This document shows positions 29,669-64,000 of a stretch of DNA of 64,000 bases, piece after piece. The position numbers and the translations under genes are program-made. The notes beneath the pieces were generated by a model, which saw only the letters and a program-made list of their open reading frames with translations, made no database searches and had not been told where the DNA came from. Each line of letters starts with the position of its first letter. Within the stretch, counting starts at the first letter, position 1. This DNA comes from Branchiostoma floridae (lineage: Eukaryota > Chordata > Leptocardii > Amphioxiformes > Branchiostomatidae): positions 2,365,753 to 2,429,752 of the forward strand of contig NC_049995.1 of the NCBI RefSeq assembly GCF_000003815.2, given 5' to 3'.

Positions 29669-31723
29669 ATGGATATCGTGCTGAACTACGCTGACCACTA
29701 CGTCTTCACGCCGTACGTGTACCCGGGGGGATGGGCGGAGTCGGACCCCCTGAGGCAGTACGTGAGTCTGTTCATCATCGTGACGCTGGGAGGATACCTC
29801 CTATACCTCGGCACCGCCAGTCTAGGATACCTCTTCCTGTTTGATAAAAGACTGCTTCAACATCCACAGATATTAAAGGTATATTTAATAATGTCTATGA
29901 CTAATATGAGTTTGACATGATTCAGTTGCAAAATCTAGTTCTGGATGTCTGATACATGATGTTTTAGTTTATGAAGGTTAGACATCCAGAAACTCTAATT
30001 GGAGATCAAAATAAACAAACAAACAAACATCCAGGTAAACAATATTCAAATACAATTCAATCTCTACTGGATATAAAAAATGGAGATTTTCCTCCAGACG
30101 TTTCGAGTGACATCCATCATTCTTCTTCAGCGTCACTATCGAATGAAATGGCAGAACAACTTTTCTGTCACTCGAAACGTCTAGAAGTAAATCTTTGTTT
30201 TCATCCAGTTGTAGGGATTGAATTTTATTTGAATGATGTTTTAGTGTGTGTGTGTGTAACAATGTTTCTTGCCTGTATTTCTACAGAACCAGGTACAACT
30301 AGAGATCCAGTATGCCTGTTGGTCAGTACCATACATGGCCATCCCGACATGCGTCATGTTCTTGTTCGAAGTACGGGGATACAGCAAGCTGTACGATGAA
30401 ATAGAGGGCACAAATCTAGGTATGTTTCTTCTTCATCTGCGTTATGTCCTTAGCTTTTAGCTAGGATTTTATTAAAGCGGGTCCAAATTTCTTGGTGAAT
30501 TATGGTAAGCAATATAGGCATGACTATTGTAGGGGTTCTGGGGGCATCCACCTTTTACAAAAAATAGATTAAAATGGTGCATTCTGAGGTATTCTGGGGG
30601 CCAGAATTACTGTTGGAGAGGTCACAGTAGGAGACTGACCACAAATGACCTAGTGGCAATCAGAATTTCATGCTTGTCAGAGGATCTCTCCCCAGTGCAA
30701 GTGCGTTCAGTGCCTCCAATTTCTTGTTAACTTTTAAGAAAAGCTAGTCTAAGTAGGCCATGAAGCATGCCTGGCTAAAGGCCTGATCAAGGTTTCTCTC
30801 TTGTGTCCCTGCCCAGGTTACCTGTCCCTTGTGCGTGACGCCCTCTTGTTCCTGTTCTTCACGGACATGTTGATCTACTGGATCCACCGCGGGCTCCACC
30901 ATCGCCTGCTGTACAAGACTCTCCACAAACCTCACCACAAGTGGAAGGTAATGCACTTCTTTGTTTATTTGTTTTGCTTTACGATAAGATTAGACATAGC
31001 ACACCAGTTTCAACAGTCCAATCTGCACAAGACAGGACTGTAATGTCTGATCCCCTTGCAATAGGATGGACCCTTACTCTTTTTGATAAGTGATGTGTGA
31101 TCTTTAGTTTAACTCGCTCAAGGTGTGGCACCCCTTAAACACAGGGCTTCTGGCTTTACGTTCCATGGCCATCAGAGAGGATTTTCTTAACCGATCCACC
31201 TCGCCTTGTCTAACTTTTCAGTTATGCAGCTAAATGTTGCTATATCATTGATGTATTCATTTATTAAATGAAAAGTCAAAATCTCAATCATACCAACACA
31301 GATATTAAATGTTCTTTAATAGATCGAGAGTCTTGACATTCCTGTTGTGTGTTTCAGGTGCCCACCCCGTTTGCCAGCCATGCGTTCCACCCCCTGGATG
31401 GTTTTGCCCAGTCCTTCCCGTACCACCTCTACCCTTTCCTCTTCCCTCTCCACAAGGGGCTGTACCTCGGTCTCTTCATCTTTGTCAACATCTGGACCGT
31501 GTCCATCCACGACGGCGACTTCCGCGTCCCTGACGCGCTCAAACCGATCGTCAACGGGTCGGCGCACCACACGGACCATCACTTGTTCTTCGACTACAAC
31601 TACGGGCAGTTTTTCACGCTGTGGGATCGGATCGGAGGGTCGTTCCGGGCCCCTTCTGCGTGGGAGGGCAAAGCGCCGATTGACGATATTAATAGAATGG
31701 GGGTTAAGGCCAAGAAGGGTTAG
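29669..31723 (+). CDS. SC5D: Lathosterol oxidase / sterol C5-desaturase (4 exons)
   Basis: Exons are 29669-29878, 30287-30419, 30817-30947 and 31358-31723, with phases 0,1,0 and 279 residues. The enzyme introduces the C5-6 double bond into lathosterol to give 7-dehydrocholesterol late in cholesterol synthesis, using O2 and electrons from cytochrome b5 in the ER membrane. The sequence follows the vertebrate protein nearly end to end, for example [22 protein letters not shown] and WDRIGGSF. The di-iron histidine boxes are intact: H138-RGL-H142, H151-KP-HH155 and H229-TD-HH233, plus HAFH at 166-169. Several hydrophobic segments fit a polytopic ER protein. It is about 20 residues shorter than my recollection of the human protein, the loss being at the variable C-terminus. 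Any untranslated upstream exon was not found. Confidence 0.95.
29990..30260. repeat. Foldback element in SC5D intron 1
   Basis: CCAGACGTTTCGAGTGACA near 30093 is mirrored by GTCACTCGAAACGTCTAGAA near 30166. The flanking parts (ATTCAAATACAATTCAATCT and AGATTTTCCT) pair with the right-hand sequence up to about 30240. A GGTTAGACATCCAG motif at its left links it to the repeat at 3186. It is noncoding. Confidence 0.6.
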
Positions 31724-33390
31724 ATTTTAGAATGAAAACTACTCTGTGTGAACATTGTAATATTTGCAGAACTAGTACTTGACTGTCACTTAAAGTGGCT
31801 AGATTTTGGGTTGTCAGATGTCTCAAGTACAGTTTTGTGAGTGAGAAATGTCTATTGGATAATTTTTATAAGTACTGGTGTTAAAAAAACAGGGTGAAAA
31901 GGATACATGTATGTCAAAATTCTATACCAATTTCTGCTAACTGGTCCCTTTGCAATTAAAATGGTCATGGAGGATGCTTTGCAGCTTCATCATCATTCAT
32001 TCATTCGGTTTTCACTGGTGAGGTACATTAGATAAAGTTTTCCAGTATGATTTGTCATTCATAGCAGACTTTAAAGCAGATCCTGACAGTCCAATGCCTC
32101 TTTCTATCATTATCTGTGCAGCTTCATGTACATAAGATCTCTTGTGGGCCTCTGTCTAGTTCACAGAATACAGTTGGTATCACACATGGTCTTGACAAGA
32201 ACTGTTAGGGGCCTTAACCTTTGACCTTTGAGCATGTGCATTTCAAACCATGACCCAGCCTATTTCACCTCATCACTGTATCATGCAGATTGTTTTTATT
32301 CCATGTACTAAAAAAAGTCTAATGTTATTGGTGCAATTTTTACCTCCTGGAAAGTTAAGTGTATTTACATGTAGTTTTCTCTGTAACAGTGAAGATGGTA
32401 GATGACTATGTACCATCAATATTATGATAAAGAATATCTCTATGTTATTAACAATTGTGGAGGGCGAGAAGACTGCAAAGTTCAAATGTGTCCACAAGGT
32501 AATTATTAGGCAGACTAATGTAAATATGGAATAAATTGACTGTTTAATAGGTAGACTACCAGAAAATAAATCTAATATTTTCTGATGCTTTCCTTGAAAT
32601 AAAAGGAATGTATGTCAGCTATCTAAGATGTGATGTGTGAAATTTATGCTTATGAGATATTGAAATCCGCACAAAAATCATAATATTTTATAAACAATAC
32701 AAATGTGATTGTATACTCTTACATTGTAATTTTTATGTATGTGTTACTTGTGTAATGTGTGCTTGTAACAATTGAAAAATAAGTCCAAACTCCTTTTGTC
32801 TGTTTACCATCTGAGTCTGCTCTACATTTAGGAAAATAAATTAAAAACTCATAGATTTTATAAAAATTGAAAGTATACAATATGTATTAGTGCTGTAACT
32901 TATCTGTGGATCCTAACATGTTGTCATCTAATTTATGTGCATTGTTACAGAGGAATATTGAAAAGATGGAATTGTATGAGTTACAAAGAAATAAGTGAAA
33001 CAGATATTAAACACAATTGGTCTTTGTCTTTTTCAGCTGATGGCTATTCCTTTAGTTTGTAAGGCCACATTGACTTGATTTATTAATGTATTGACGAGTT
33101 ATATATCATAAGTTTGAGTCCATTAAAAAAAGTTTTTATATGTGTGAGTGTGTGTGTGTGTGTTGTATATAACTTTAGAGAGAGATATTAAAAAAAGACC
33201 ACACAAATAGTTGCCATGAACAAGTCACCAGGCAGCCCAAAATATCATCAACTTTTCAATTGCTCAACGTGATAAGAAGTATCCAAACACAACACAACAA
33301 AGTATCCACACTTCTTGCTGCAGATACTGGAATGCTGTCACCCTATTTGAAACTAAAAAGGCCAACAGAACAAGTCCTTTGTGTGACATG
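31724..33390. other. SC5D 3' region and spacer
   Basis: AT-rich sequence with several possible poly(A) signals (for example AATAAA at 32529-32534 and 32598-32603) and a short TG microsatellite near 33140-33164. No protein-like frame is present. The true end of the SC5D transcript cannot be chosen from sequence. Confidence 0.45.
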
Positions 33391-33432: not shown

Positions 33433-34131
33433 GCAATGTACCCCTCAAACACATGTTTTGTTCCCCACCTACCAGCATAATGGTACAGTCCGGTTGTAAC
33501 CTTTGACCCTTCATGTCCATCTAAGAGTTTCGCGCGTTTCTTCAGATATTTTCGGACTTTACGAAGAAACGTTCGTGTAATAAGTTACGAAATTGAAGGA
33601 GTGGGTCAGTAATACCTCCTATTTCGTACAGGTAATGTTGTAAGTTGTTTTCAGTTCCATGGGGCTACGTTTTTATGACGTTTTGGGTACTGTATGTTTC
33701 GTGGGGAGGGGGATGAAAACTTGTACTAACGTAGGTCCGACGTTAAATACCAAGAGAGACTCCTAACTCAAAAGCGAACCATGCGTTACTCAGCACCAAG
33801 AGACCACGTCTAGCGAAATAATAGACGTTAAATGAGGACAACAACAACAACAATATTCTTATGTACGTTAATGCAGTAGTTTGAATTTCCTTGAATCCAA
33901 CCCCTAATTAAAAGTCATAAAAGCTGCTACAGGTATTTTGGTACATTTCAGCCTTCTGTGCATATAATATTATAATTTTTTTTTCTGAAGTGAAGTCTGG
34001 ACCTTGAGAAAAGTTGGGTGGGTGTAACGTTACTTATTATAGAATGCATGCAAGAAATGATTGGTAATGTGGAAAATATTGTATTCTTTCTTTTAATAGG
34101 AAGGACTGGTGCACGTTCCAAAGTGAGAGCC

Positions 34132-35409
34132 ATGTCATCAGCAAGCGTGTGTACGCAATGTGGGAGTAACAACATCCAACTGGACCCGCACTTCTGCTTG
34201 GAGCAGCAGATTTGTACCGACTGTGGGTTCGTCTTGGAGGAGGGGAGCTTTCAGAATGATCCGACCCGTGCGTTTCAATCACAACAGTCGCAAATCGCCC
34301 TCCCGCTAAAGTACCGCCAGCATAACAATTTCCGGGAGCACGTCTCGAAGGCGCGAAGAGATGGAGCACTTAGAGTGGAAGAGATTTCTGCCATGTTGCG
34401 CGTCACGTCAGACGTCATGGTGGAAGAGGCGAAAACATTGTTCACTCAAGCGTTCAACCTGAAGGTGCTCAACAAGGCGAAAAGGGAGAAAAAACGCGTG
34501 CTGCCCGGATGTGTCGTGTACATCGTGTGTCGACAGCACGATTGGCCCATCCTTTTGTCCGACATGTGGGACCTGCTACAATGCAGAGATTCAGTCTTCT
34601 ACAGCGTGTACAAAGTCATACTAGCGGAGCTGGATATCACCATCACAGTGCCAGAGATAGAGACGGTTGTGCCCTCTGTTATTCAAAAGTGTGGCTTTAC
34701 ATTCGATCTTAGTGATGAACAGATGAAAGCAGTCACTCAAATTGTGTGCCTTGCGAAGAACACGTGGATTACTTGCGGACGCCGGTATGACCCGATCATA
34801 ATAGCGTCAGTTTTCCTCGTGTGGAAGGCCGAAGACTACGCCAAGAGGAAGAAGACGAGCATCCCAAAGTTCTGTCGGCAAATCAAATTTGGTACCCAAG
34901 TTCTGCCCATGGTACGGTCTCGTGTTCAAGAATTTGAGGGGCTTTTCTTAAAGCTTGTCTCAGAAATTCCTTGGGTTGAAACAGGACAGATCGACAAGAA
35001 AAACATCGTCTGCTACCTCTCGGACATTCTGAGGTATGAAAAGACGCTGCTCGCAGGAAAATACGGTGACTCAGACCTGGAAAGCGACGATGAAGAAAGA
35101 GAACTACAGGAGAAGATTCTTCCACCGAGTATGACAAACCGGAAGCCCAAATCAGATGTACGGGACACTGACAGTATGACAAGCAAAGTTTCTGTTGCAG
35201 TGTCATATTCCACAGAGCTGGATGAGAATGATATACCAGACTCAGAACTGCACAAGTACATCAGGAGCACCAAAGAAGTCATGATGGTAGAGGATGCCCA
35301 AAAATCTGCCCAAGAATATGAGGAAGAAAATCCTCTCAAGAGAAAGGATTCCAGCAGCAGCCGCAAGACGCGCAAAAGGAAAATATCAGATGTTGAAAAC
35401 ACTCCTTGA
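34132..35409 (+). CDS. BRF2: TFIIIB subunit BRF2 (TFIIB-related factor for type 3 Pol III promoters)
   Basis: The coding region is one uninterrupted exon for 425 residues, close to human BRF2 (419). BRF2 joins TBP and BDP1 to recruit RNA polymerase III to U6-type promoters in the nucleus. Visible parts are: an N-terminal zinc ribbon (C7-x2-C10 and C28-x2-C31); two TFIIB-like cyclin folds, about residues 70-290, with CVVYIVCRQHDWPI matching the family's CRQHNWP motif; an acidic linker; and a C-terminal DENDIPDSELHKYIRS stretch matching human DENISDSEIEQYLRT. The ATG at 34132 has G at -3. The frame continues upstream to 34018, but an acceptor (TTTCTTTTAATAG at about 34099) places that part in an intron. 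Where human BRF2 has the redox-sensing Cys361 (LPPCM), this protein has Ser333 (LPPSM). The tail is Lys/Arg/Ser-rich. Confidence 0.93.
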   Translation: MSSASVCTQCGSNNIQLDPHFCLEQQICTDCGFVLEEGSFQNDPTRAFQSQQSQIALPLKYRQHNNFREHVSKARRDGALRVEEISAMLRVTSDVMVEEAKTLFTQAFNLKVLNKAKREKKRVLPGCVVYIVCRQHDWPILLSDMWDLLQCRDSVFYSVYKVILAELDITITVPEIETVVPSVIQKCGFTFDLSDEQMKAVTQIVCLAKNTWITCGRRYDPIIIASVFLVWKAEDYAKRKKTSIPKFCRQIKFGTQVLPMVRSRVQEFEGLFLKLVSEIPWVETGQIDKKNIVCYLSDILRYEKTLLAGKYGDSDLESDDEERELQEKILPPSMTNRKPKSDVRDTDSMTSKVSVAVSYSTELDENDIPDSELHKYIRSTKEVMMVEDAQKSAQEYEEENPLKRKDSSSSRKTRKRKISDVENTP

Positions 35410-40536: not shown

Positions 40537-43500
40537 ATGCAACCGTCCAGATGTAAGTGCCATTGTCCAACTACTGCTGCCCTGGGACCAAGACTTGTGC
40601 ATCCAAGAACACTGGGTACAAGAACAGCAAGCATCATGGGAAGCCTACACTACATTCCTCATTCGAATGTTCAGTCCACGAATAAGGGACCAACAAATTT
40701 CCTCCCCTCAGTCAGAACTCCGCCAGGTTTTTCTTGGTTGGTGACGATCATGTCGATATGGCTTGTTCTGGTTGCCATAGCAACCCCGTCGAGCGGCGTG
40801 GAATGTAACGTTCCGAGCGAAACCCCCTGGAGGGGATTTGCGGTGAGTTTTTCGCGGGAATGGCGGATTGATGCCGCGTGCAGTACATACTTCGATTGTT
40901 ACGGCGTCAACGCAACACTGGAGAACATTGCACAACTCTGTCCTGTAGAAATGCAAGAAGGCGACTCCCTGTATTTGAATTCTTCATCAAACCCCTTTTT
41001 CCCGGAGGTAAAAGCTGTCAACGTGTCAGAAACTGACTTCGTCAACTGCCCTACTGATTATACACAAGACCAGCTCCTATTTGGCAACACTTCTACAGCA
41101 GGAATGTCGCTGCTCGTAGATTCAAGATTCCTCGCAGTCGGAGTGAACTATTTCGCACAAGTTCCAGACGACAGTTCTCTTTTCGGCCGATGCGATTTGG
41201 GGTTGAGACTTAATGTCACGGTAAAAACGAGAGATTGTGAACCGACGAGTGCAGACCCGGAATGCAGCAGGAACGGTCGTTGCGTGACACGGCCTCAAGA
41301 GGCGACGTACAGCTGTGCGTGTGAGGACGGTTTTCTCGGAGTCTACTGTGGGGAGCAGGATGGTTGCTATGGCAACCCGTGCCTGTACGGTACATGTGAG
41401 GATGTGCAGGAAGGACTGAGCGGAAATGACTACACCTGTGTCTGTGAGGAGGGGTTTACAGGTGGTTGTTTTCAGTTTGTCTCGATGTTTGTGTTCTTCT
41501 GAATTTAAAGGGTGTACTGACAGAGACCCTTTATCATACTCTATGATTATCTTCGTTTACGAAGCTTTTGTTTTTGGTTTGTCTGTTTGTATTCTTGTGT
41601 ATCTATAGTTATTTCAATGCACCATCAGCAGGGTGAGAGAAAGTGAGTGGGAAGATAGTGTCATTGCCTTGTGGGAGTGACAGGAAGTAGAGTTTGGAGT
41701 TGGTAGAACTAGCCATAATCAGACATGACAAACAGTCCAGGTCATGGGGTCAATGGAAGAGGCTACTAATAGATGTTGTTTCATTGGTCTGATTTTTATC
41801 CATATTTTTGCAGTATTATGTTTTCCATATGCTTGTTTCTTGAACTACGGTATCATCTTTTTAGAAGTTGATACAGTAATTCATCAGATCAATAGTTAAC
41901 CTGCAGGCACGTTTACAGTATTGTGAATACTGATGTGACTTTTTATGTCCATTTCTAGGTAAGAACTGTTCAGAGCTGATAGACTTGTGCACAGAGGGCG
42001 TGTGTAACAACGGCACCTGTGTGAACGGTACTACTACAGACAGCCACTACTGCGTCTGCCACCCAGGCTATACTGGTAAGGCATCCTCACAATAGATAAT
42101 TTTTATGTGTTTAAAGTCCTTGTTGAGAAATCTTGTTGGTGATTTGTGTGGACGTTTGTTTTCATTGTGTCTAGACTTCAGAAATGGTTTAGCCTGTGTA
42201 CCATCCTACATAGTGACCGCTGGCTCATTAGCAGGCAAAAATATTGAGCCAGTGGTCACTACAGAGGATGGTACTCAGGCTTAACTTAAGATTGTTGCCT
42301 TTTGCAGTGCAAACAATTTTTATAGGATTCTCAGATTTAGATGACTTTTATGCACCAGTAAGCTTGAAACTTTAAGAACAGTAATTTAAAAGGAATTAAA
42401 GGAATTTCCTGTGGAATATTGGACAAAAGAATTTTTTAAAAATCTGTTGTTTTTATTCCATGACAGGTCCTACTTGCAACATCATCATCGACTTGTGCGA
42501 ATCATCCCCCTGCGAAAACAGTGCTACCTGTACTCCTGTCATACCACTGGACTACAGCTGCGAATGTGTGGCTGGTTTTACAGGCAAGGATTGCGAGGTG
42601 GACATAAACGAGTGCGGGTCCAACCCGTGTAGTAACCGCGCCACGTGCGTTGACCTCGTCGACGGTTACAACTGCGTTTGCACGGAAGGTTACTCGGGAG
42701 AAGAGTGTGACGTCGAAATCAACTTCTGCGAGTCACAACCCTGCAAGAACGAGGGAACATGCAACCGTGTACTGAACGGCTACACGTGTACGTGTGCGTC
42801 GGGTTTCACCGGGCCAACATGCGAAATACCGGACCATCAGTGTGAGAGCGACACGTGCCAAAATGGCGGACAGTGCTTCCCGGTCCCTAACGGATTCGAG
42901 TGTCTTTGTCAGCCGGGCTGGACAGGAGATTTGTGAGTCACAATTACATGTCTGTAAACATAGTTTGTGGACAGGTAGGCCAATTTGCTAAATTCTAAAT
43001 TCTAAAAAATGATAATTATTGTACTTTTAATAGACGACTTTTTATTCACAAAATACTATATCGGAGACAGACTTACACACCTATGTTCCAACATACCCAG
43101 GTTTCTGACCGCACCTAACACTAACTCCTAGGTTTGTGCCTTAACATATAGGCATTGGAAAATATTGTGTTGGAACATAGGGGTGTCGGACAATATAAGT
43201 GTCAGGACATACATAAGCCATAGGGGAGTCCCCATGGAAATTGTGCTCTCACTGTCTCTATTGTTTGTTACTCTGTGACTGGAGGGTAACCTCCAGCGAA
43301 AGAGTGTTAGCGGTTTATGGGTTGAGTGTTCGCACCAATATCTCGATGTTCCATTTGCCGCAATTGTATGTGGTTTGGTATGTCATCTGTACTCTGTTGT
43401 GAAATGATGCACGTTCTTTTTTTTTCGCGGTAGCTGTTTTTATTATGGATGTAATTTCAGTTTCCACCTTTATGCCGTCCGGTATAGTGGTCCAGGTCTT

Positions 43501-46500
43501 TGTTATGATTGCGCCTTAAGCCTTGTTATATTTCTGCATACTTTAATAGACATATTCTATGAAAATTGAACATTCTTCTATCGTCTTTTCCTGTTCCAGT
43601 TGTGATGAACGTCAGAACTACTGTGTGGACATTAACCCTGACGTGTGTCAGAACGGAGGAATATGTCAGGATACGAGCCTGCCGGATGGACCGCCCAGCT
43701 ACAACTGCACCTGTTTGCCTGGGTGGCAGGGTAAGATATGCAAATGTTTATTCAAATGGTGTCATAATTTGCATAATCTATAACTTATGATATCACTAAA
43801 CCTTCATACAAAATATTTCATACATACACTTTTTAGAGTGTTACTAGAAGTTTCGTTATTAGTGTAAATTGTCATGTTGTTATTTGCAATACACTGTATC
43901 CTGTACAGTTGTTCAAAAAGCCATCCATGGACTGTACCACATTACTTTCAGGAAGGAGTATCTTCCTGTAATGCTGTAGTACCTTAAAGCGGCATCTTAA
44001 ATAATCTTAAATTGCCTTGTTTTATGGGGGGGGGGGGGCTGCATCAACTTTCTCACTATCCCACTATCGAAAATATCTTGAGTTATGGCACAAACACAAC
44101 CAACAACAACATCTTTCTTGCATCAGCAGAGAACCTCTGTCCTGAAGGAAACAAATAAAGTTTTACTTAAATAAATTTTTACTTTGCTCCTTACAGGTAG
44201 AGACTGTGAGGTGGAGACAGATGAGTGTGAATCGGACCCCTGCTTAAATGGAGGAACTTGCTTCGAGGCTTTCAACTACTTCAACTGTACATGTGTGCTT
44301 GGTATGTAGCACTCATATTCACTACTTTTTGGTAGCAAAATGATAATGTTTATTGTAGATCATACAATGATAGACTGGTCCTGAATGGCCATCACAATTC
44401 TCAGTCCAACCAATGTTGGCATGGTTGTCAATTAGCAGTTTGACCATTGGAAAACTGGTGGCATGTTTGCCAAATATTTGTGCATTCATGTTTTTATTTT
44501 GCATTTCTATGTTACTTTTCATTTAAATGGACAGTGACTATTTGATTGGTCTATTAGCTAAAGATGTGTTTATTAAGGCAAAATTTGAAAAAATGAAGTT
44601 TGAGTTGATCAAAATTTGTTTTCCAGTAAACAATATTTATAATGTATATAGTGCTAACAGCAACAGTGCTATGTTGTAGTAAGACTTAATTTGGTTGTGT
44701 TATAGAAAACTCCTATATCCTATCAACTTTTTTATTTGTTTGTTGTCTCCTAGGTTACAATGGAACCCAGTGTGAGAACAACATCGATGCCTGCGAGCTC
44801 GGCGGTACACCGGAGGAGAAATGTCTGAACGGCGCGACGTGTCTGGACTCAGACATCGGGCTGGAGTACACCTGTCTGTGTGTCCCAGGGTTCATAGGTC
44901 AGGACAATTTTAACAACCCTGTACGGTCCACAGTTGATACAATGTTGTAACCTTAGGCCATGGAAAGCTGTCTCCAGCAAATTAAAATCTTTTTTTCGTC
45001 CCGCTTATTGGTTATACTTCTTAAGGTAATATTTGACTTGATTGGTAAACAGCTTGATGAGTTGAGTTTATTTAGATACCCTTTAGCTCAAATTGAGCTA
45101 ATCTTCCAGGGCTCGTACAAATAAGAGGCATACAATATATACAAATACAATACAAATGTATATACAAATCCTATGCAAGACTTAATCATTAATTGGAGAA
45201 AGCAAGAAACTTATAATGAAAATTCCAAATAAAATGGCTGACATCGTAAGATCAAGATGAAGTAATTCGAGTATTGAAATATGAGACAATTTTCCTTTGC
45301 TCCGTATGAGCTCTTGGATATGTCAATCCACTGTACTTATTATTGCTAGTTGAATAGAGAACCAAGTAACAATGAATGATACTAAATGACAAATTTAAAA
45401 CATTTCATTATTTGTTATTTGTACATACTTTATCAGGTTCCAACTGTAGCGAGGAGGTTTTGGAATGTGAGTCGGAACCGTGCCAGAATAGCGCCACCTG
45501 CCTGGATCTGATTGGTCGATACGAGTGTAACTGTACTGACGGGTTCTACGGTGTCAACTGTGAGAGCGACAAGGACTGGTGCGAAGATGAGGTCAGTTAA
45601 GATAATGTTAGAAATGTTGCAAATTCAAATGTTCGTTGTATTTACATGTGTCCTGACTCTAAACATCCATCATGATTGTTTTCTGTCATCATCATTTGAA
45701 CAACGTAGATAGAATTAAAATTGTGAGAGTTGAAAATATCAGCTTTTAGTAGTTTTACAACAATTGAAACATTAACATTAACTGTCATAATTTTTCCGGG
45801 TAGAGTAAGTTTGAATGTGTAATATACTTTAAAGAGGACAGGACAATGTCTCTGACAATAAAGGGACAGGCCAAGTTTCGTCCAAAGCAGTCTCAGGCGA
45901 CCAGAAACACCATTTCCTGTCGGAGCACAGCAGCATTAGTGAACCTCCCCTCCTTCCCTGATTATTCCCATCCTCCACCTACCCGCTCTAATTCCTCATG
46001 GTAGCATCTGTCTTTTAGGCAGTCGGGTGTGTTATGGAGTTGCCACTGACCCATATTTGTGTTTGTGCTATTTGTGAGTAGACAGAAAATGGAATTCTTT
46101 CATAACTTGTGGAGAAGAGAATTCACGTCTCTATCATTCTACACTGCAGCCCTGCTACAACAGTGGTACCTGTATCACAGTGCTGGGCTGGTACCGTTGC
46201 GAGTGCGCCCCTGGCTGGTCGGGCGAGAACTGCACCGAGAACATCGACGAGTGTGTGAACAACACCTGCCAGAACGGAGCCACCTGCCAAGACCAGATAG
46301 CCTCCTACAGGTGAGTAACAGGTGCTACAGGAGTGAACAGGTGCTCAAGGTGGGCTCCACTGCTACCACCTGTTAGCTAAGATATACATGTACGAATGTC
46401 TGCACAGAGCCGTGTCTTAGGTGAGACTGAATGTGGGTCCCTCTCCTTTTATTGGAACAACAGATGTCTTCCTCATTACACAATACTGTCAGGACTTACT

Positions 46501-49500
46501 GGCAACGTATGTCTAAGTTGTAAAGATTGTTTATAGAATCTTTAGTTCAAAATAGTCTAGAGTAACAGCGTTGTTTGGATGAAACATGCTTATTCTGCAC
46601 CCCATCAAACAATTTATGTTAGTAGAAAATTGACATTTTAAGTTCTAGAGTTGATCAAATCTCCCTTTTTGTTGTTTTGTGATTTCCAGCTGTGAATGTG
46701 CTGTGGGTTTCAACGGTACGTACTGCGAGAACAACATCGACGACTGTGTCTCCGTTCCGTGTCAAAATGGCGGCACTTGCCACGATCAAGTCAACGACTT
46801 CAGCTGCACTTGCGCTCCTGGTTTCACGGGGAAGGATTGCTCCACTGACATCGATGATTGCGAATCTTCGCCATGTGAAAACGGCGCCACCTGTACGGAC
46901 TTGGTCAACGACTACAACTGCACTTGTGCTCCAGGGTACGAGGGGAAGAACTGTACCGTTGACATCGACGATTGTTTGTCCTCGCCATGTGAACATGGCG
47001 GCACCTGCATTGATGCTGTGAACGACTTTAGTTGCACGTGTTCGGCCGGGTATACAGGAAAAAACTGCTCGCTAAACATCGATGAGTGCGAAGCGTTGCC
47101 TTGTGAAAATGGTGCGACTTGTTCTGATGCTGTCAATGATTACATCTGCACATGTGCTCCCGGTTATGCCGGAAAGAACTGTTCGGTAAACATAGACAAT
47201 TGCGCGTCCATGCCGTGTGAAAATGGAGGCACATGTTTTGACGAAGTCAACGATTTCAGGTGTACCTGTATGCCTGGGTATACTGGCAAAAACTGTTCCG
47301 TCGACATAAACGAATGCGAATCATCACCATGTGAGAACGGTGCTACCTGTACAGACCTCATCAACGACTATGCATGTAACTGCACAGCTGGTTTTGATGG
47401 AAAGAACTGCTCTAATAATATCGATGACTGTGAGTCCTCCCCTTGTGAGAATGACGGAACATGCGTGGATCTTGTGGATGACTTTGAATGCCGCTGCACT
47501 CCCGGGTTTGAGGGAAACAACTGCTCAGTGAACGTTGACGAGTGTTCTTCCAACCCTTGTGCAAACGGAGGCCTGTGTGTGGATGAGATCAATGGATATC
47601 AGTGCTTCTGTGTACCAGGTAAGCGAAGGAGTGGTGGTGTAAAAATGGTCAGGGACTTTATACTCCTATGATGTTTATCAACCTCTAGCCCTAACCAGGG
47701 ATAGCTCCAGGACCTGTCTTTCTGTCCCAGGATGGAAATTCGCTTCTTGGGACAGTAATTTTTTTTTACCTCATCCATGACATAAAAATTTTTGACAGAT
47801 AAGCCTAATTGACAGATTTAAGAACAAAAACAAACATTGGGGTCCTAAATACTCAGTGGGACAAAAAAAATTTAAGCTGGAAAGAGCCCTGTCCTAAATC
47901 CACAAACATTACAACATAGGAGTGTCACCCAAGTGGTCAAAGTTCTAAAGTGCAACGTAAAATAAAGTGTGCAAAGTGCAAAATATTACTATTAAAAGTC
48001 ATAAGTATGGTTGATATGGAGATCTAGGAGATCTAAGCTATGATCAAACATCTAAGCTGACTAAAGCTAGCAGTCAGGCCCCAGAGCCTTAGGAAACAAT
48101 GGTAAGTAACTTAGCCTCTTCATGGGTGATTAGTAAAGACAACATGGGCACACCATGCTAATCCCTTGGTGTGGTAGGGACCACCCTGACCCCATTAAAA
48201 ACTCATCAGGCTCAATCAAAGACTCATTAGGCCAGTATTGGCTTCCTCCTAGGGGTAAGGATACACTGGGAGAGTGGGTTGAAAAATAAATAGAAATCTT
48301 CAACAGACAGACTATCCATTAGGGAACTGTTACAGAAAATTTATGTAGAAAGTTCTACAATTCATAAATAGTTCATTTTGGGCAGAACTTATTCTGCAAA
48401 GGGATCACTTCTAGAATCAGGGCTGTGTCTAAGTTTGAATTTTTTCTGCCCCTCTCATAGTTTAGCACCACTCTTGATTTTCAAATAATTGCAAAATCTG
48501 TCATTTTAAGGTTATTAAAGATTCATTTTCATCCATTTCATGTCATAAAGTTAAGATTTTAGGACAGACGGTAACATTTTTACTTTTTTCATTGTTGTAC
48601 AATGTGACAATGTTTTATCATTGAATGTACTTTAGTTGATTTGCACTGTTTTATGTTTTGTTTGTGTATGCAGGGTACTTTGAAAAGCGCCCTAGTGGCC
48701 ATATGTTGCATTTAGATACTAAGTACTAAATGAAATGAAATCTTTCCTGTTTAGGATTTATTGGTGAGAACTGCAGTATCGACATTGATGAGTGTCTGAC
48801 GGCGGCATGTGAAAACGGCGCCACCTGTACAGACCTGATTGATGACTACAACTGCACCTGTGCTCCAGGTAACTTCTTCAATTTTCTATTGGGCAAAATT
48901 ATATCAAAGTGCATTCTTTCCATGGCATTTTTGGCCTAACGAAAATAGATTGTGACATTCAGATGTACTATTTGCAACTTGAGATCAATTGTTTTGGTGT
49001 ATATGAATGCTTGTCTTTTTTTTTCTTCTTCTTCGATACCCTTGAACCACCCCTACTAGGGTATCACTGAGGGATACTTTTATATGTTTTTCTATATGTA
49101 TGTAGTTGTATGAATACAGTACAGCGAGGGGGAAGATGGTATAATTACTAGACCAGAAAAATAGTGGTCAAATATCAATGATTGACAGGCAGGAAGTGGT
49201 AGAACATATGAGAGTCCCATTCAGTTGAGAGTGACAGGAAGTGACCAACGGACACGACTGTAAACATTGATCAAAATCTTATTTGCATAATAGATGAACT
49301 AGAATCAAACAAGTCATATGAGAAATTCAGAGACCTTCAAACTCTTGTTCACTTTCAAAAGTTTGAATGTTTGTATTTTCCTTCAAGGCTGGAGTGGAGA
49401 GAACTGCACAGAGAATATCGACGAATGCCTGTCCAGTCCGTGTGGTGTCGGCACCTGTGTTGACGACATCAACGGGTACAACTGTTCGTGTCCACAAGAC

Positions 49501-52500
49501 ATCTACACTTACGACAACCACTGTAACATCATCGAGCCATGCAGTTCCAACCCTTGCCAGGCAAACACAACAACAACATGCAACAACACCATTGTAAACA
49601 ACATCTATACGTACATCTGTGTCTGCATCGCAGGGTCTGAAGGGCAAAACTGTGAACAGAACATCGAAGAATGTGTTGTCAACAATGTTCTGTGTGAAAA
49701 TGGAGGGACTTGTCAGGATCTTGTTAACAACTACACATGCGAATGTGCTGCTGGGTTCACTGGACAGCACTGTGAGGTGAACGTAGACGAATGTGAGGCT
49801 AACTTCTGTCAGAACGGCAGCACCTGTGTTGATGGTATCAATGGTTACACTTGCAGCTGTGCTCCAGGGTTCAAAGGTCAGTACTGTAACGAGACCATTG
49901 ACAGGTGTGAGGATTCGCCTTGCTTGAATGGTGCGACGTGCACTGATACACCAAATAGTGTCACAGGTTTACCGTTCACATGTCAGTGCGCGACCGGCTT
50001 CAACGGCACATTCTGCGAAGTAAACATTGACGAATGCGTGTCCTTTCCTTGCCAAAATGGCGGAATCTGCCAAGACGGCATCAACGAATATCGGTGCGTA
50101 TGCCAGCCTGGTTTCAACGGAACCAACTGTGAAATCGACATTGACGAGTGCGCAACCGACTTTTGCGAGAACGGTGCCACCTGTCGCGACGAAGTTAACA
50201 ACTATACCTGTATCTGCGCAGCGGGATTTGAAGGAGGAAACTGTGAAATCAACACGGACGAATGTGCATCAAACCCCTGTAACCCACAGACTGGGATATG
50301 TGTAGACCAGACCAATGGCTACACCTGTTTCTGTTCAAACGGTTGGACTGGAAGTGACTGTAGCGAAAATATTGACGACTGCGAAAGTCTCCCGTGCGTG
50401 AACGGTGCAACCTGTATCGATGGCCTTGGAAGCTACAATTGCTCGTGCTTGCCGGGATATGAGGGGACGGACTGTGAGGTTGAAATTGACGAGTGCGAAT
50501 CTGATCCGTGTCAAAATGGTGCGGCGTGTAACAATGGCATTGACGAGTACACTTGCAGTTGTGTGCCAGGCTTTGCTGGTTAGTGGTGTTTCCTTTTCAA
50601 AATCTCTGAGTCTAAGACCGTAATTTAGTAGCCTGTGTTTTCACAATCTGTCACTGGCTGAGGTTAATGATCCCTAGGGGGTAGTAACTGTTGGGCTGGC
50701 CGCTAGAAGCATGATTTAGTCAGGCTAGCAATTTAGCAACTGTTCTTTTTTGTTGTACCTTAGTCCTAACTCTGAATTACATGTAGCTCACATATCTCTG
50801 ATGTTTGCAAGATTGTTCGCAAATATTGCTGATGTCTGATGATGGTTTCATGTGGAAGATGTCACTGCAAAATTAGTAAGTCAGAGATCTCAGCAGCAGT
50901 ATAATCAAACAATGGATAGTGATGGTGAGTGAGTTCAAACGAGCACGTGAACCCACTCCTTAATTCGCTCATGTACATATAGCTAGGGACCAACTGGGGC
51001 ACTCGTCCCAAATTTGGACGATTCCAGATGTTACAGATGTTAAGGTTCCCAGACAGAATAGTAGAGAAGTAACTGTATAGAGTGTATAATAAAAGTCAGA
51101 GCGAACTACATGTACTACCTAGATTGTACCCAGGCTGCCATATGCATGAATGTAGTGAAACAGTTCTACAAGACTCTAGAACAATGCAAGTCAAAACTGT
51201 GACAAGTTGTCCTATTTTGTTTCCAGGGACCAACTGTGAGATCAACATCGACGATTGCGATCCTCAACCCTGTCAAAATGGCGGCACTTGTCTGGATGGC
51301 GTAAACGACTACTTCTGCCTCTGCACGTTCCCATATGTCGGTCGGAACTGCTCCCAGCTTCCGTGTGAACAGTCGCCGTGTCAGAACGGGGGAAACTGCA
51401 CGCACACGGACTTTGCAGTGAACGATGGGTATGGTTATACCTGTAGCTGTCCCGCTGGTTTCATAGGTGAGATCATTTGGTTCTTCCTATTTTAGATCTC
51501 TAACATCAACTGTCATAATTCCACCAGGTACCACAATACCGCCACATCAAACATTCTTATAAGAGGCCTTCTCAAGATTGTCTTGAACACCTAAATACTG
51601 GAAGTGTATATACCTCAGGATTACTCAGATGCTGCATTGGTTACATCTCTTTTAAATCATGTATTTTTTGTCATGTGGCAGTATTATGATATCCGGTTGA
51701 ATTATGAGAGTCGGTGTTACACTTTGCTGTACTTTTATTGGGCGTATGGCCGAGACCTTATATTCAGTGTGTGAAATCATATATTAACAAAGTTTTGTTC
51801 TGGAGTTACTTTGATAATACAGTAGTATGAATTATAAATCGGTCTTTTATTTCCAGGTCGTAACTGTGAGCTGAACTTTAACGACTGTTGGACCCGGCCA
51901 TGTGTGAACGGATTTTGTCAGGACGGCATCAACAGCTTCATCTGCTTGTGTGATCCTGGTTAGTACATCTACTGTATAATGGTTTACTTTAAAATTTGTA
52001 GCAGTGTTGTTTTGCAGTAGAAGGGGAAAGGGAAGTTTTCTCAGTGTTTGAAATTTGCGATTGAAACAATTCTATAGTTATGTAATACATTTGGAAATGC
52101 ATATTTGCGATGTCATAAATTCACCACCAAAACTGTGACAGTAAAATAAAAGCACTATAAGAAACTCTTTCTATTCCTACTGGACAATCCAAAAAAACGT
52201 TTTCTGCTCCTTTGCATATCAATTAATAAGTTACGGTATAAAACCTGTTTTTATCAGATCTGTTCTGTGCCACTGACACTGAAAGATAGTGGATGCAATC
52301 TGAAACGACCGACCATTTTCAATGCACCTTTCTCACGTGTCAGCCATGATAAATAAAAAATGAGGTCAATGAGGCAGACAAACTGACCGTTTTCAATACA
52401 CCTTTCTCACGTTTCAGCCATGATAGATAAAAAACGAGGTCATTGAGGCCAACTGCTTTTTGGTGTATCTTATTACCCAAATGTCTACTTTCCTTGATGT

Positions 52501-55500
52501 AAGAAACAAACTGTTACTTTCCAGGATGGGCCGGTACCTTGTGTGATCAGCCCATAGATGACTGTATAGACAACATGTGTAGGAACGGCTCTACTTGCGT
52601 GGACAGGCACATGGGATACATCTGTGTCTGCATGTACACCCTAAAATAATCAACAATGTTATCAAACCAAATGTTGTGTTCCAGGGTGGGCCGGAGCCTT
52701 GTGTGATCAGCCCATAGATGACTGTATAGACAACATGTGTAGGAACGGCTCTACTTGTGTGGACAGGCACATGGGCTACATCTGCATCTGTCCGCCTGGG
52801 CTGGAGGGGACGTTCTGCGAGGTCAACATCGACGAATGTCTGACAGCAAACTGTCAGAACAACGCTACATGCGTGGACTTGTTCAACGACTACAGGTTGG
52901 TGACACCGTCTTGGAAGTCTGTACAATTTTCAATTGGCAAAATGTAGAATGATTATCGTAATGTTTTGAACACTTCCTGCGTAGACTTATGAAGACAGAT
53001 GAAGGTGAACTAGCGTTACTAAACCTCTCTCCTCAGGTGTGACTGCTTGCCTGGCTGGACTGGGAAAGACTGTGAATCGGACATCCCAGAATGCAGCTCC
53101 AACCCCTGCCTCAACAACGGTACCTGTTTCGACAACGTGGACGGATTCGTGTGCAACTGTCCGCCATTTTACACCGGCCAGAACTGCTCCCTGTCCTTTG
53201 ACCCTTGTGATCCGACCTATGACCCCTGTGAGAATGGTGCCACCTGTTTGACCAATCAGGATGGGACATACAGTTGCAGTTGCATTCCAGGTAATCAGTG
53301 TTTTTCTAGCACGACGAAGAAAAGAATTTTTCAGTATTCTAATTTTATAACATTTACATTCACGTATAACAAAATGATTAATGTCCTCTATAAAAGTGTG
53401 CAAAAGCTTAATACTACTTGTAGGTGAAATGCTTGTTTTAGGAGGTTCAAAGCCTATCTGGCTCATAGAAGATGATACCTACACTGCTTTCTCTCTTCAG
53501 AACTGTGCACTTATGAGAAAGAGTATGTACTACTGCCACCAGACTAGCCCCCTGCTTTAGTGCTTGCAAAACTGTGTGGCCCAAGGGCTATAGAGACAGA
53601 GATGGGCATCACCCTATGCACCAAAAGGTGGAAAGTCTCTTTTTCTGTAAAATTTTTTGGATTACTTACTAGAACATCTTTGTGTACCCTAGGTTTCACG
53701 GGGATGAACTGTGAAACCAACATGGACGACTGTGTCCCCGACCCGTGTCAGAATGGAGCTCGCTGTGAGGACCAGGTGAACGATTACGTCTGCCACTGCC
53801 TCCCAGGGTTCACCGGGAAGAACTGTCAAACCGACATCGACGACTGTCTGCCTGGGATCTGTCAGAATGGAGCCACTTGTCTTGATCTTGTGGATGGGTA
53901 GGTTCTTAATTTTTTTGGCAACACCACAAGGGCGGAGGCCCTTTTTTTGTTATTGATGACTCTGAAATTCAGTCTTATTATCAATCTATTATGTTTTTTT
54001 TGCTCGCAACTTTATATACTTCATACCAGTTCAGTATGTTTTGTTCACAGTTAACGTAACAGTTTATTGTTTTTCATACTCATTACTGTATTTTATGAAG
54101 TGCTGTTACATCTTGATTTAATTAAGAAGTTTCCACTCCATGATTTTTCAATTATTCTATGAACATTAAGTCTGCATTGTGGCAAGAATTACACTTTGAG
54201 TTACAATATCATCAAAACCATCCTATTTCATCCCATCCCATTCTGAATCTGATTCTTTTACAGGTACAATTGTAGCTGTGCACCTGGCTATACAGGACAG
54301 AACTGCAGTGAAGATATTGACGAGTGTGCCTCGTCACCCTGTGAGAACGGTGCCACATGCAGGGATCTGATTGGTCAATACGAGTGTGACTGCTTTCCTG
54401 GATTTGAAGGTGATTGGTCAAATCAAATTCCAATCCACAGTCTTAAATTGGATTTCAGAATTAAGGTTGGAACTGTTACACTATATGCAGGAACGCTATT
54501 TAAATGTGAACGTGAAATGATTACTTTAATTGACAGACCAATGCAAACAAGTACAACTTTTAAGACTAATAAGTTAAACTATTTGATGCTTTCAAAAAGG
54601 TTCAGGGCCTTTTCCTCATAATTTGCTCAAACTGTACTTTTTGATTCCAGATTTTTTTGTGAAAACAAGACCCAGTAGTGATTTTCTCATAGCACATTTC
54701 AAAGATTTGTCTCTAAAATAACTTCAGGCCAGAACTGTGCCTCAGAGGTGGATGAGTGCAGCAGCGCCCCCTGTGTCAATGGTGCGACCTGCAGAGACCT
54801 GCTGAATGGCTATGACTGCACCTGTGCGGAGGGGTTCACTGGCACTGACTGTGAGGTCAACATAGACGACTGTGTTCCTGATCCTTGTGTCAATGGAGTG
54901 TAAGTTTTTCATCTATTCTACGAAAATTTATGTAAAATACTGTATGTGATTTTTCCCGTATTAGACTTGGGAGGCTTCAAACTATTTCCTGTATTAATAA
55001 AATTATGTAGGTTTGGGGTTTGTTTGAGTGAGTTTATGTAGATCCAAAATTAGCCTCATAAGAGGCTATTCTTCCTGTGGTCTACACATTTGTGAAATAA
55101 ATGAAAATAAAAATCTATTACCTCCCCGTGAATTTAGTAGTGTTGACTCTTCTGTTGACCCCATGACCTGGAATGTCTGTCATGTCTGATAAACAACTAA
55201 ATCTATATTACCGGAATTTTACTTTCTTTCACTCCCACTCAATTTCCGTCTATACTGACTTTGTCTTGAAATGATTGAGAACACACAAGAGCACACAAGA
55301 AACATCCAAACACACGAAAACAAATTTTCTTAGTACAGAGGCAAATATTGACTATTTTGTTCTTTTTTAGCTGTCAGGATTCGGTGAATTCGTACAACTG
55401 TGTGTGCGCCCCTGGCTGGACTGGAGAGAACTGCACCGTTGACATTGATGAATGTTCCAACAACCCTTGTCAGAATGGTGGCACCTGTACTGACAGGGTC

Positions 55501-58500
55501 AACGGATTCACCTGTGCATGTTCACCCGGATATACAGGTGAGATAGAATTCATAATTACATAGAAAGTACATGGAATTGTAATGTAATGGCATCCCTTAC
55601 AAATAAGTCTGACGTGTGAGAATTGCTGCTGGTGTCATTGTCGTACACTCAAACAATACAGGAGCCATGCTACGTTTGATGCTTGTATTCATGAATCACT
55701 AACAGTATCCAAGGCTTAACTGACGTCGCCTGGGTACAGTAGTGCTACTCTACTCTTCATTTAGGTTTTCCTATCTATTTCCTATGTATGTATACATCCC
55801 TATCTAATTGCCATTTGTTTTACCATAAAATTTTGTCAGGACCCAACTGCACATTTGACATCAATGTCTGTGAGGCTCCTGGCTTCTCCCAGTGCCAAAA
55901 TGGTGGCTCCTGTGTCGATGGACCAGGGAATAACTTCACATGCAGGTAACATACTGTACTAAATCAAAACAAGACAAAGTTAACACTGAATTCTTGTAGA
56001 CTAAAAGTATTTGTGTGGTGTTGAATGATCAAGTGGTCACAGGTTTCATTCCTGGCATTTGTAGCTACACGATGTGTCCTTTGGAATGTCCTCACTCCAC
56101 CCAAGTGTCATCATGGGTGGCTAACTTTTTGGTTTGGGATGTGAATTAGGAAGAAAGGATGCCTCCCTCTTCCATACATATATAATATATATACCATGCC
56201 CTAGACACAGTGAATGAAAGTCCCCTTTGCAGCCTCAAAAAGGTTACAGGACTATACTTGACCAACTTCACTGAAGCAGGGCTCGAAATACCACCTGCAC
56301 ATGCAGGTTAGTGCAGGTAAGATTGGAGCTGTGCAGGTATTTCTGATGTCTACCTGCACCTAACCTGCACTGGTCCATCTACTGGGTATATAGTATATCG
56401 TATGATGTAGGTGCATGTGGATTGTTATTAGCTGCATTGACTGTTACCACCTATTAAGTACAGTGAAACCTGTCTATAGCGGCCACTCAAGGGACTGGTC
56501 AAAATTGGCCACTATAGAGAGGTGGCCACTATAGAGAATATGCTAATTAATTTACCACAAGCAATAAGTTACACATGGTTTTAGTACCCACTGATCTTTA
56601 TTCACATAATACAGTACTGTACATGTACTGCAATGATTTTTACACTATGTGTATTAAGAAAACAATAGCTATGAAAAGTTTTAAATGTTCTACAGCTGAT
56701 ATTGTCTGAAGAGACCGGTATCGTCATATTTCTTTGATCTTTCGTCTTGTATCCTTTGATACTTCGCTGTTCGTGGGTTCCCGCTCGCGTTCACACGTCA
56801 GATTCGCCCATTATGCTAATGTGGTACTCACAAGAAAAGTCTCGTCATTTTAGGTTTATCTCTTAATAAATGTAAGAATAAAATCCACCATAGTCTGAAG
56901 TTCATATCATTTTGTCTTTGTAACAATTTATTTAGAAAGTTTTTGTGATGTAAATTTACCTAAGCGATAGCGTATTAGAACGTAACTTTAACACAATTTA
57001 CCTCCGTAATAGTGGTGTCGTCTATTGACCTTATATGACCTAGTTTGTCAGCGGGTATGGGTAGACCAGTTTACGTAGTTTTGTTTTGAAAATAAATCAA
57101 AGAGGTTTTAAATCCGGCCTAGGGTGACGATGCGGCCGCTGTATATGGCCGAACGCGTGCCGAAACATAGATCAGCGGTCCGCGTGGCCGTAATCGACAG
57201 TGTTTTTGTACCTACGGGACCGGAAATCTTGTGGCCGTGGTCGCGTTGGACAGGTGGCTGCTAAGCCTATTTCTTAATCATTACGAATCCAAGGGACCGA
57301 CAAAAAGTGGCCACTATGGGCAGGTGGCCGGCATGCAAAGGTGGCCGCTAATACAGGTTTGACTCATAATATAAGATAATGGTTCCTGAACAATTTCAGC
57401 ATGATCGATACTTCCTAAATTCAGAGTGGTGCAGGTAAAATTTGTCAGGTGCAGGTAATTTTTAATGTTGCCTGCACCAGTGCAGGTATGCAGAAAAAAG
57501 TATTTCGAGCCCTGACTTGTTCCTCATCATGACGATGACAAATGACATGACCATATTTTGTCCCCTCCCCTTTACAGCTGCATGCCAGGCTATGCTGGTC
57601 CCTACTGTGAGGTAGATGTGAATGAGTGTAACTCTGACCCATGTCAGAACGGTGCCACCTGTCAAGATCTCATCAACGGCTTTAACTGCAACTGCACAAC
57701 AGGTAGGGACAATCAGAAACTGCAGTTTGTTTAGATTTATTACTTGCCACTGAAGAAGTTGTACGCAACAAATCCGGTTTGGCAGGCTGAATAAAAAATT
57801 AAAGATCCAGAAACTTAAGCTATGTAGCTCCAGGTTTCTTACTGAGGGATGACTGTGGTGCAATAGATGTCAGTTAGCTGAGGAATGAGTCAACTCTACT
57901 ATGTTGACTATGTACTGCAGTGTGCTTAGATGTATTGTTTCCCCTGAGTTTGATGATAAAAAAATGAAGCCCCTGTCACATGACCAAGGCCTTCCGACCT
58001 TCTCCAGACCATTGTTAGGAATTAGTCCTTAGCAAGTCTGTGGTTGGGAGTTTAGTAATTTAAAAAAATCAAAGTTATGAAAGTCATATTGTTAGATGCA
58101 ATCAGAGGAGTGAACTGGAGTTTCAATAGGATGGAGTCCAGGCTACTCCCAACCCAGTGCCAACCTTGGCAGAGGAGTGGTTGGGAGCAAAGTTTCCAGT
58201 CCGATTTTGAACTTATTTCAGTCGTAACATTTTAAAACTAACCTCATTGTATACCGAAACCATACTGGACTTCCTGTGGTGTATGATGGCCATGTTTATA
58301 AAAGTTACGTCACTATGTCTAACAGCTTATTTTCTTTTTCTAGGTTGGACTGGAGAAACCTGTGCAGATGACACTGACGAGTGCAGCTCCGACCCCTGTC
58401 AGAACAATGGAGTGTGCCAACAGCTGGCCCCAGGATCAGGCTACCGCTGCTTCTGTCCTCCGGGCATCCAGGGCGACAACTGCGAGGTCAACTTTGACGA

Positions 58501-60802: not shown

Positions 60803-61733
60803 NNNNNNNNNNNNNNNNNNNNNNNNNNNNNNNNNNNNNNNNNNNNNNNNNNNNNNNNNNNNNNNNNNNNNNNNNNNNNNNNNNNNNNNNNNNNNNNNNN
60901 NNNNNNNNNNNNNNNNNNNNNNNNNNNNNNNNNNNNNNNNNNNNNNNNNNNNNNNNNNNNNNNNNNNNNNNNNNNNNNNNNNNNNNNNNNNNNNNNNNNN
61001 NNNNNNNNNNNNNNNNNNNNNNNNNNNNNNNNNNNNNNNNNNNNNNNNNNNNNNNNNNNNNNNNNNNNNNNNNNNNNNNNNNNNNNNNNNNNNNNNNNNN
61101 NNNNNNNNNNNNNNNNNNNNNNNNNNNNNNNNNNNNNNNNNNNNNNNNNNNNNNNNNNNNNNNNNNNNNNNNNNNNNNNNNNNNNNNNNNNNNNNNNNNN
61201 NNNNNNNNNNNNNNNNNNNNNNNNNNNNNNNNNNNNNNNNNNNNNNNNNNNNNNNNNNNNNNNNNNNNNNNNNNNNNNNNNNNNNNNNNNNNNNNNNNNN
61301 NNNNNNNNNNNNNNNNNNNNNNNNNNNNNNNNNNNNNNNNNNNNNNNNNNNNNNNNNNNNNNNNNNNNNNNNNNNNNNNNNNNNNNNNNNNNNNNNNNNN
61401 NNNNNNNNNNNNNNNNNNNNNNNNNNNNNNNNNNNNNNNNNNNNNNNNNNNNNNNNNNNNNNNNNNNNNNNNNNNNNNNNNNNNNNNNNNNNNNNNNNNN
61501 NNNNNNNNNNNNNNNNNNNNNNNNNNNNNNNNNNNNNNNNNNNNNNNNNNNNNNNNNNNNNNNNNNNNNNNNNNNNNNNNNNNNNNNNNNNNNNNNNNNN
61601 NNNNNNNNNNNNNNNNNNNNNNNNNNNNNNNNNNNNNNNNNNNNNNNNNNNNNNNNNNNNNNNNNNNNNNNNNNNNNNNNNNNNNNNNNNNNNNNNNNNN
61701 NNNNNNNNNNNNNNNNNNNNNNNNNNNNNNNNN
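60803..61733. other. Assembly gap (931 N)
   Basis: A run of 931 N, a length suggesting an estimated gap size. It removes part of the mucin-like region and probably the sequence leading to the membrane anchor. Confidence 0.98.
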
Positions 61734-62858: not shown

Positions 62859-64000
62859 CATACAACTGGCTTATTTCTGATGGAACCTTCAGAAATTGCA
62901 CAGGCTAGTCTGAATTTAGAAGATGGCATGCAAGTCTGCTTTATTATCAGGGACTCCAGACCCAGCTATGACAAGAAAGAGTTCTGAAAACCTTTCATGA
63001 CTTGTTCCAATGTGTTTGGGAACGGACCTCTCCTTGGTGCTGAATGCACAGATATTGCAGTTTACTAGTTATAAAGAAAGTTTTTTGTCTCAGGACACCA
63101 GGCATTCTTTGCTTAGCTTTCCTCGCAGCTCTGAAGATATTGCTTCTGCACTATCAGTGGTGGTTGGCTCTAGGCTGGTAAAAACCACCAGGATATATTG
63201 GGATATTTTGAAATATTTTGAAAGTTTCTGCTTCCATTGAATTTTGCACCATTTTCATTGAAATCATGAATTTTTTTCACATGTGTAAAACAAACAAGAT
63301 TTTGGTTTTGTAAAAAAAAAATGTTTTAGAATGTTTTTTTACATGTATTTTGTTGGTAATTTCACCAATATTTTTCATGAGTTTCGTTTCAAGTTACTCC
63401 ACTCACCCCAAATAAAGGAATACTAGTAAGAGCTTTAGGAGGTATGTTATATCCACATATAGGCATGGCTCAAGCATGGTTTGTAGTAGAGAAGTGTGTA
63501 TCCTAACCTAATGGCTTCATTCTCCTGTCATCCTCACTTTTCATTACATGTTGATGCTGTCTCATTCCCTTTTACCAATGCTATTTATGGGACAGTCAAC
63601 AATGTGTACAACATACTGTTTTCAGAAAATACTTTCAAATGCAATAGAAACCTATCTTTATATAAATTTTGAATGCATTTTTCTCTGCCGTTGAGAATTT
63701 AAGTATTGTTGACTGTTCCTGATTGATACCTGTCAACCTAGCATCATGTCAGATGTTCTTAACCCTCTACTAAATGAATGTGATTCTATGCTGTTTGTTG
63801 TGACCATATTATGCATGTTTGTACCCTGTGTTGGTCTGTGATGCATGTAAGGTTTCATGTACTGTACTATATTAGATTAGTATTCTGAAATGTATGTTTT
63901 GATTTATGATAGTTGATATTTACAGATTTGTAGTACAGTGTGCACCATTTTTCTTAATGTAAAAACTTAAGCCTTTTGTTTTTTAAACGACATACATATA
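62859..64000. other. Possible 3' UTR and flank, no further gene
   Basis: AT-rich sequence without protein-like frames. AATAAA at 63411-63416 could serve the EGF/mucin transcript. The end of the gene is not defined. Confidence 0.4.

Follow-up and report, generated by a model that had tools for sequence, protein, structure and literature searches.

Layout of the gene

The window, i.e. the whole analysed stretch of 64,000 nucleotides (G000:C17:2365753-2429752), carries on its plus strand the N-terminal part of a gene for a large EGF-repeat protein; all features of this gene described below lie on that strand. The first-pass annotation had proposed a phytocyanin-like head in front of the EGF repeats. 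The motifs quoted for it (EGDSLYLN, DFVNC, GVNYF, GRC, and GLRLNVTV) are all found at their given place in one open reading frame, 40537-41502, and cysteines 171 and 219 of this frame are those of DFVNC and GRC, respectively.

The in-frame ATG at 40750 is a likelier start than the ATG at 40537, because a signal-type peptide results (40750-40797, hydrophobic peak at residues 1-19). The likely true start is residue 72 of the open reading frame. The peptide is followed by the head domain, referred to here as the EYS N-terminal domain (40798-41235), which comprises residues 17-162 of the protein, i.e. 146 residues with six cysteines; the cysteine after these already belongs to EGF1, as its first. 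The cupredoxin-like core of the head, the part that can be aligned to plant phytocyanins (73 columns), is situated at 40948-41223. EGF1 and most of EGF2 (41236-41461) close the head exon with a phase-1 donor in the glycine codon of FTG/KNC (the slash marks the intron). Signal peptide, head and first EGFs are contained in this single exon, 40750-41461. Exon 2 (41959-42075) is of phase 1 at both ends and is the counterpart of exon 5 of human EYS.

The remaining EGF array extends from 42467 to 58825 and gives, together with exons 1 and 2, about 51 EGF repeats in about 20 exons. A motif count on the splice model yielded 49 regular six-cysteine EGF matches ahead of the stalk, and by reading two further EGFs are apparently broken by misplaced small exons of this automatic model. 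Within the array we counted 25 O-glucose and 36 O-fucose type motifs, using what we take to be the definitions of these motifs. The Ser/Thr-rich stalk (58826-60795) has a Ser/Thr content of 40-43%; it is broken by an assembly gap at 59347-59446 and truncated by a second one at 60803-61733. These values agree with the earlier description of about 50 EGF repeats and a mucin stalk.

The splice model was based on consensus splice sites and codon preference, with exons joined from 40750 to 58344 and onward. It probably misplaced 46382-46420, 52504-52623, the stalk after 59203, 68756-68806, 69597-69679, and some exons of the paralogue described below. On account of such misplaced small exons the model is trusted for the domain order and for the two introns named in the next section, not for the exact length. 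The stretch 52504-52623 is nearly identical to the EGF exon at 52685-52800, less than 200 bases away, and its frame reads into a stop. It is probably a dead duplicate or an assembly error.

The stalk is not the end of the gene model, which goes on beyond the window to five LamG domains. Past a further gap (64001-67420) the downstream DNA of the same strand codes for a Thr/Pro-rich piece, one EGF and the five LamG domains. The Pfam family Laminin_G_2 matched five stretches in the C-terminal half (E 8.1e-67), and the best PDB match of one LamG domain was agrin. The order, as read from the model, is LG1-EGF-LG2-EGF-EGF-LG3-EGF-EGF-LG4-EGF-EGF-LG5, so that 1, 2, 2, and 2, in total seven, EGFs are situated between successive LG domains. 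The model terminates in LG5 with ...NNVYSCDGR followed by a stop. Pfam gave nothing but LamG and EGF families for the C-terminal half, and its assembled stretches were searched for a transmembrane segment without success (top 19-mer hydropathy 1.25). From the order, the strand and the known layout of EYS we infer that the N-terminal part and the LamG part belong to one gene across the gaps 60803-61733 and 64001-67420. The stretch in between these two gaps (61734-63999) shows no clear coding frame.

Relation of the gene to EYS

We are highly confident that this lancelet gene is orthologous to EYS (eyes shut homologue/spacemaker, RP25). The features expected of EYS, namely an N-terminal signal peptide, an EGF array passing via low complexity into LamG/EGF, and the N-terminal sequence and exon structure, are all present. 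Human EYS has been described as consisting of a signal peptide, 21 N-terminal EGFs, a low-complexity region or putative coiled coil, and five LamG domains with interspersed EGFs (PMC8127272, PMC3281914, PMC3003713), and a C-terminal construct as 5 LG + 7 EGF (PMC7210881). The signal peptide, the head, the EGF array, the low-complexity middle, the five LamG domains with seven EGFs and the secreted nature are common to both. In contrast, the lancelet gene has about 51 EGFs before the stalk versus 21 in human (PMC8127272), and its stalk is long and rich in Ser/Thr, the corresponding region of human EYS being described as of low complexity with a putative coiled coil (PMC3281914, PMC3045506).

For the comparison at the N-terminus a provisional sequence of human EYS was used, not a database record. 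Its letters match the residues of published variants at six of six positions (R26, E47, V112, T120, R164, and E176); by reading, it also fits Q27 and G288, i.e. eight of eight positions in total. The lancelet head plus three EGFs and this sequence are identical at 104 of 265 positions (39%, E 6e-59).

The exon structure points in the same direction. The intron after exon 4 of human EYS, at EGF2, falls after c.748 (PMC3045506), which is phase 1 in the glycine codon of FTG/KNC; the first lancelet intron has the identical place and phase. The second human intron, at EGF3, is given as c.863- in PMC3281914, i.e. after c.862, and by this numbering it lies in the glycine codon of FSG/PFC, again matching the lancelet gene. 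In PMC3045506 the same intron is put at c.862-, one base earlier, and therefore the phase of the second human intron rests on the text of PMC3281914. We consider it more telling than the intron phase that in lancelet and human alike a single exon codes for the head together with EGF1-2. Since EGF arrays commonly have introns of phase 1, the intron match is support for orthology, not proof of it.

The first-pass annotation had suggested an unusual receptor or ligand, with a copper-free cupredoxin head on a Notch-style EGF array. The array does contain Notch-like repeats with O-glucose and O-fucose type motifs. Nevertheless, the gene model runs on into the LG/EGF part and no transmembrane segment was found there, and we regard this reading as extremely improbable. 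Notch itself, with its transmembrane segment and intracellular repeats behind the EGFs, was rejected, since only LamG and EGF families were listed for the C-terminal half and the search for a transmembrane segment was negative. Crumbs, which combines LamG/EGF with a transmembrane segment and a short tail, was rejected because the model ends at LG5 and a stop. The architecture looks like that of EYS, which is secreted into the matrix and has its LamG domains at the C-terminus.

Fold of the head domain

HMMER searches of Pfam and PDB with one, two or three heads retrieved no cupredoxin at E up to 10, the matches being at chance level only. By hhalign the profile of three heads (window gene, paralogue and the provisional human EYS) aligned with five phytocyanins (PDB sequences) over 73 columns with a probability of 89.1% and a score of 39.4. 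Without the provisional human row, the two lancelet heads gave 33.6% and a score of 27.0. None of 200 column shuffles reached the real score, for the two-row and three-row profiles alike; the best shuffles scored 20.3 (two rows) and 20.8 (three rows), the reversed profiles 9.5 and 12.1. Dropping any one phytocyanin left the probability at 84-90%, and the match climbed from a single phytocyanin sequence (2cbp, 52.7%) to the family. Taken singly, the heads matched the phytocyanins at 0.7% (lancelet, score 14.9), 32.6% (paralogue, 26.0), and 10.5% (human, 22.6).

Several yardsticks were scored against the same phytocyanin profile. Of the undisputed relatives, azurin reached 33.5 (over 22 columns at the copper motif), plastocyanin 16.9, amicyanin 13.0, and a four-row ephrin profile made of ephrin-B2 plus three fragments from lancelet 19.7; unrelated LamG, FABP, and EGF reached 9-12. 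Azurin, plastocyanin and amicyanin are single sequences and hence fairly compared with the single heads; azurin scores above all three of these, whereas plastocyanin and amicyanin do not exceed the range that they span. When the profile of three heads was compared with single plastocyanin, azurin or amicyanin or with the ephrins, the probability was only 0.2-2.1%, so that the resemblance is specifically to phytocyanins. With the phytocyanins (plantacyanin, stellacyanin; PF02298) the head shares the 73-column core, the F-x-x-C motif and the disulfide to the cysteine of G-x-C. It differs from them by its missing copper ligands, by an N-terminal stretch with four extra cysteines outside the core, and by lying beyond the reach of HMMER. 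The lancelet genome itself yielded no PF02298 member above the cut-off; a single match below it (E 2.57) contained a stop. An AF2 model of the single head sequence had a pLDDT of 33.9, too low to read a fold. Judged from these sequence comparisons, the head is likely to have a cupredoxin fold; the proposed phytocyanin-like head holds in the controlled hhalign comparison and in the kept disulfide, not in HMMER, and a CRABP2 fragment scores similarly.

We considered two alternatives for the fold. The gene could be an EYS orthologue whose head is another beta-sandwich or a novel fold, with the C-terminal half phytocyanin-like by convergence on the pattern F-x-x-C ... G-x-x-YF ... C-x-x-G-hydrophobic. 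The lacking HMMER-level match would fit this possibility, as would a profile of three sequences that falls to 33.6% with the two lancelet ones, and the first approximately 50 residues of the mature head, which fall outside the aligned core. Against it stand the 73 columns aligned in order including the shared disulfide, the failure of all 200 shuffles, and the phytocyanin score of the three heads, which is higher than that of the four ephrin rows. We therefore regard another or novel fold as unlikely, albeit the more serious of the two alternatives. The head could also be a calycin barrel of the FABP/CRABP type. The PDB search with three heads had a polysaccharide lyase as top match (E 0.04), and 28 of the 29 matches listed were CRABP2 (E 0.044-0.91). 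By hhalign a CRABP2 fragment gave 86.2% with three heads and 45.2% with the two lancelet heads, the latter exceeding the phytocyanins. The similar scoring of this fragment means that an hhalign percentage alone is no proof of a fold. However, the CRABP2 alignment spans only the first 50-63 head columns, FABP3, FABP4, FABP5, and CRBP1 singly gave 0.3-1.7%, and a CRABP2 family profile fell to 38.9%, or to 2.2% without the human row. Moreover, FABPs are cytosolic and have no disulfides. The fragment was picked among the best of 177,635 sequences, whereas the phytocyanins had been named beforehand by the first-pass annotation. The CRABP2 match is probably due to chance and a calycin barrel is very improbable.

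Two known combinations were also set aside. Ephrins are copper-free animal relatives of the cupredoxins (PMC6485061), and the head is likewise animal, secretory and, by prediction, copper-free. In contrast to this likeness there is no detectable sequence match: PF00812 did not match the head at E up to 10, and hhalign gave 2.1% for head versus ephrins. The Ephrin family matched other loci of this genome, four of five above the cut-off, and the window locus was not among them. Ascidian phenol oxidases combine EGF, TSP1, tyrosinase, and a cupredoxin-type domain (PMC9395347) and were not considered relatives on account of their different architecture.

Assuming the cupredoxin fold, loss of the copper site is nearly certain. 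The type 1 ligand set tested (His, Cys, His, Met/Gln) is absent from all three heads. There is no histidine in the lancelet head nor in the paralogue head, and by reading none of the three histidines of the provisional human head is at a ligand position. In the alignment to cucumber basic protein, with the ligand positions that we assume for it, the lancelet head has Pro, Ser or Gln (depending on gap placement), Arg, and Leu. The earlier claim of ligand loss is supported; its identification of the residues as Ala and Arg is not. If it is a cupredoxin, the head would have no type 1 copper site; without the ligand set it is to be called cupredoxin-like, not a blue copper protein. The phytocyanin disulfide pair (F-x-x-C and the C before x-x-G) is present in all three heads. 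An N-glycosylation-type site N-V/I-T-V is likewise found in all three, NVSE in lancelet and the provisional human sequence only.

A second head-bearing gene and the proposed role of the head

The genome (513 Mb, 431 contigs) was searched with the window head and gave, weakly (E 0.022), at least one other place; as the search scores the best candidates, head-bearing genes number at least two. This paralogue (G000:C12:1280207 to ~1285400, L002 + L007) has a head in three exons followed by EGFs. Its joined head is 36-39% identical to the window head (38% including the first EGFs). A reverse search with it yielded four matches, three of which were the paralogue exons themselves and the fourth the window head (E 4.8e-11). 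There are eight to ten EGFs, some exons being tandem copies (around L007 390-1000), followed by a predicted transmembrane segment (GILATAFVAVIAVVMYGVC) and a tail. No signal-peptide exon was found near the locus. The window gene and the paralogue have the head followed by EGFs in common. They differ in that the paralogue head is split over three exons and a transmembrane segment and tail replace stalk and LamG. As the head recurs before EGFs in at least one other gene here and in the provisional human EYS, the finding goes beyond chance. Among viral contigs no relative of the head was found. Judging by these predicted architectures, two kinds of protein apparently bear the head in this genome, one long and secreted, the other short and membrane-bound.

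The best explanation overall, to which we assign a probability of about 0.74, is that the window gene is an EYS orthologue coding for a secreted matrix rod whose head is most likely a copper-free cupredoxin of the phytocyanin type. The product would be an extracellular-matrix rod made up of signal peptide, head, about 51 EGFs, Ser/Thr stalk and LG/EGF end. Matriglycan binding in vitro has been shown for human EYS that has the complete set of five LG domains, and in zebrafish lacking matriglycan EYS is mislocalised from the connecting cilium region (PMC7210881). By analogy the C-terminal LG domains may anchor the lancelet protein to a cell-surface glycan. The EGF rod and the stalk would determine its reach, and the head at the far end would be a putative protein-binding tip. 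Lancelet EYS would presumably be expressed in photoreceptors, as one transcript over the gaps and with the head in the cupredoxin fold. Short human isoforms consist of the signal peptide and five EGFs according to PMC8127272; they keep the N-terminus and would by position carry the head. As a tentative proposal, which we consider somewhat less probable than its opposite, the tip of chordate EYS could be a copper-free phytocyanin-type cupredoxin, recruited in parallel to ephrins and unnoticed in a blindness gene. It might act as a protein-binding ligand head that the EGF rod keeps at a distance from the membrane in the long isoforms and that is soluble in the short human ones; lancelets would have a membrane-bound form in addition.

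The protein is of a known kind; the domain itself, common to lancelet and human EYS and a membrane-bound lancelet relative, seems to be new. As far as the literature was searched, which covered few subscription journals, the head is not described. In the available portions of PMC3045506, PMC8127272 and PMC3281914 the account passes from signal peptide or cleavage site directly to EGFs, and no head is named. Among the causes of recessive retinitis pigmentosa EYS is a major one, and the gene is lacking in mouse, rat and guinea pig (PMC8127272). What the EGF and LG domains of EYS do was described as unknown until matriglycan binding was found (PMC7210881), and the variant R26Q is annotated as 'close to signal peptide cleavage site' (PMC3281914). 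If there is a conserved folded N-terminal domain (approximately residues 22-173 in human), variants such as R26Q could be judged on structure, the short EYS isoforms would be candidate ligands, and a search for partners would be feasible with a domain small enough for expression. It would also be a further case, beside the ephrins, of a copper-free cupredoxin as an animal recognition domain.

Some other features of the window were noted. An open frame at 33994-35409 resembles a TFIIB-related factor with a zinc ribbon (CTQCGSNNIQ...), presumably BRF2-like, and an exon at 31323-31730 is, we assume, similar to a fatty acid/sterol hydroxylase. Exons resembling a fibrinogen C-terminal domain (18187-18522, minus strand) and CUB domains (6325-6672 and 7888-8409) are present as well. 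An exact two-copy tandem repeat with a unit of 350 bases (100% match) is situated at 11037-11736, and beside it there are tandem repeats of 246-247 bases at 11565-12237 and 13157-13816.
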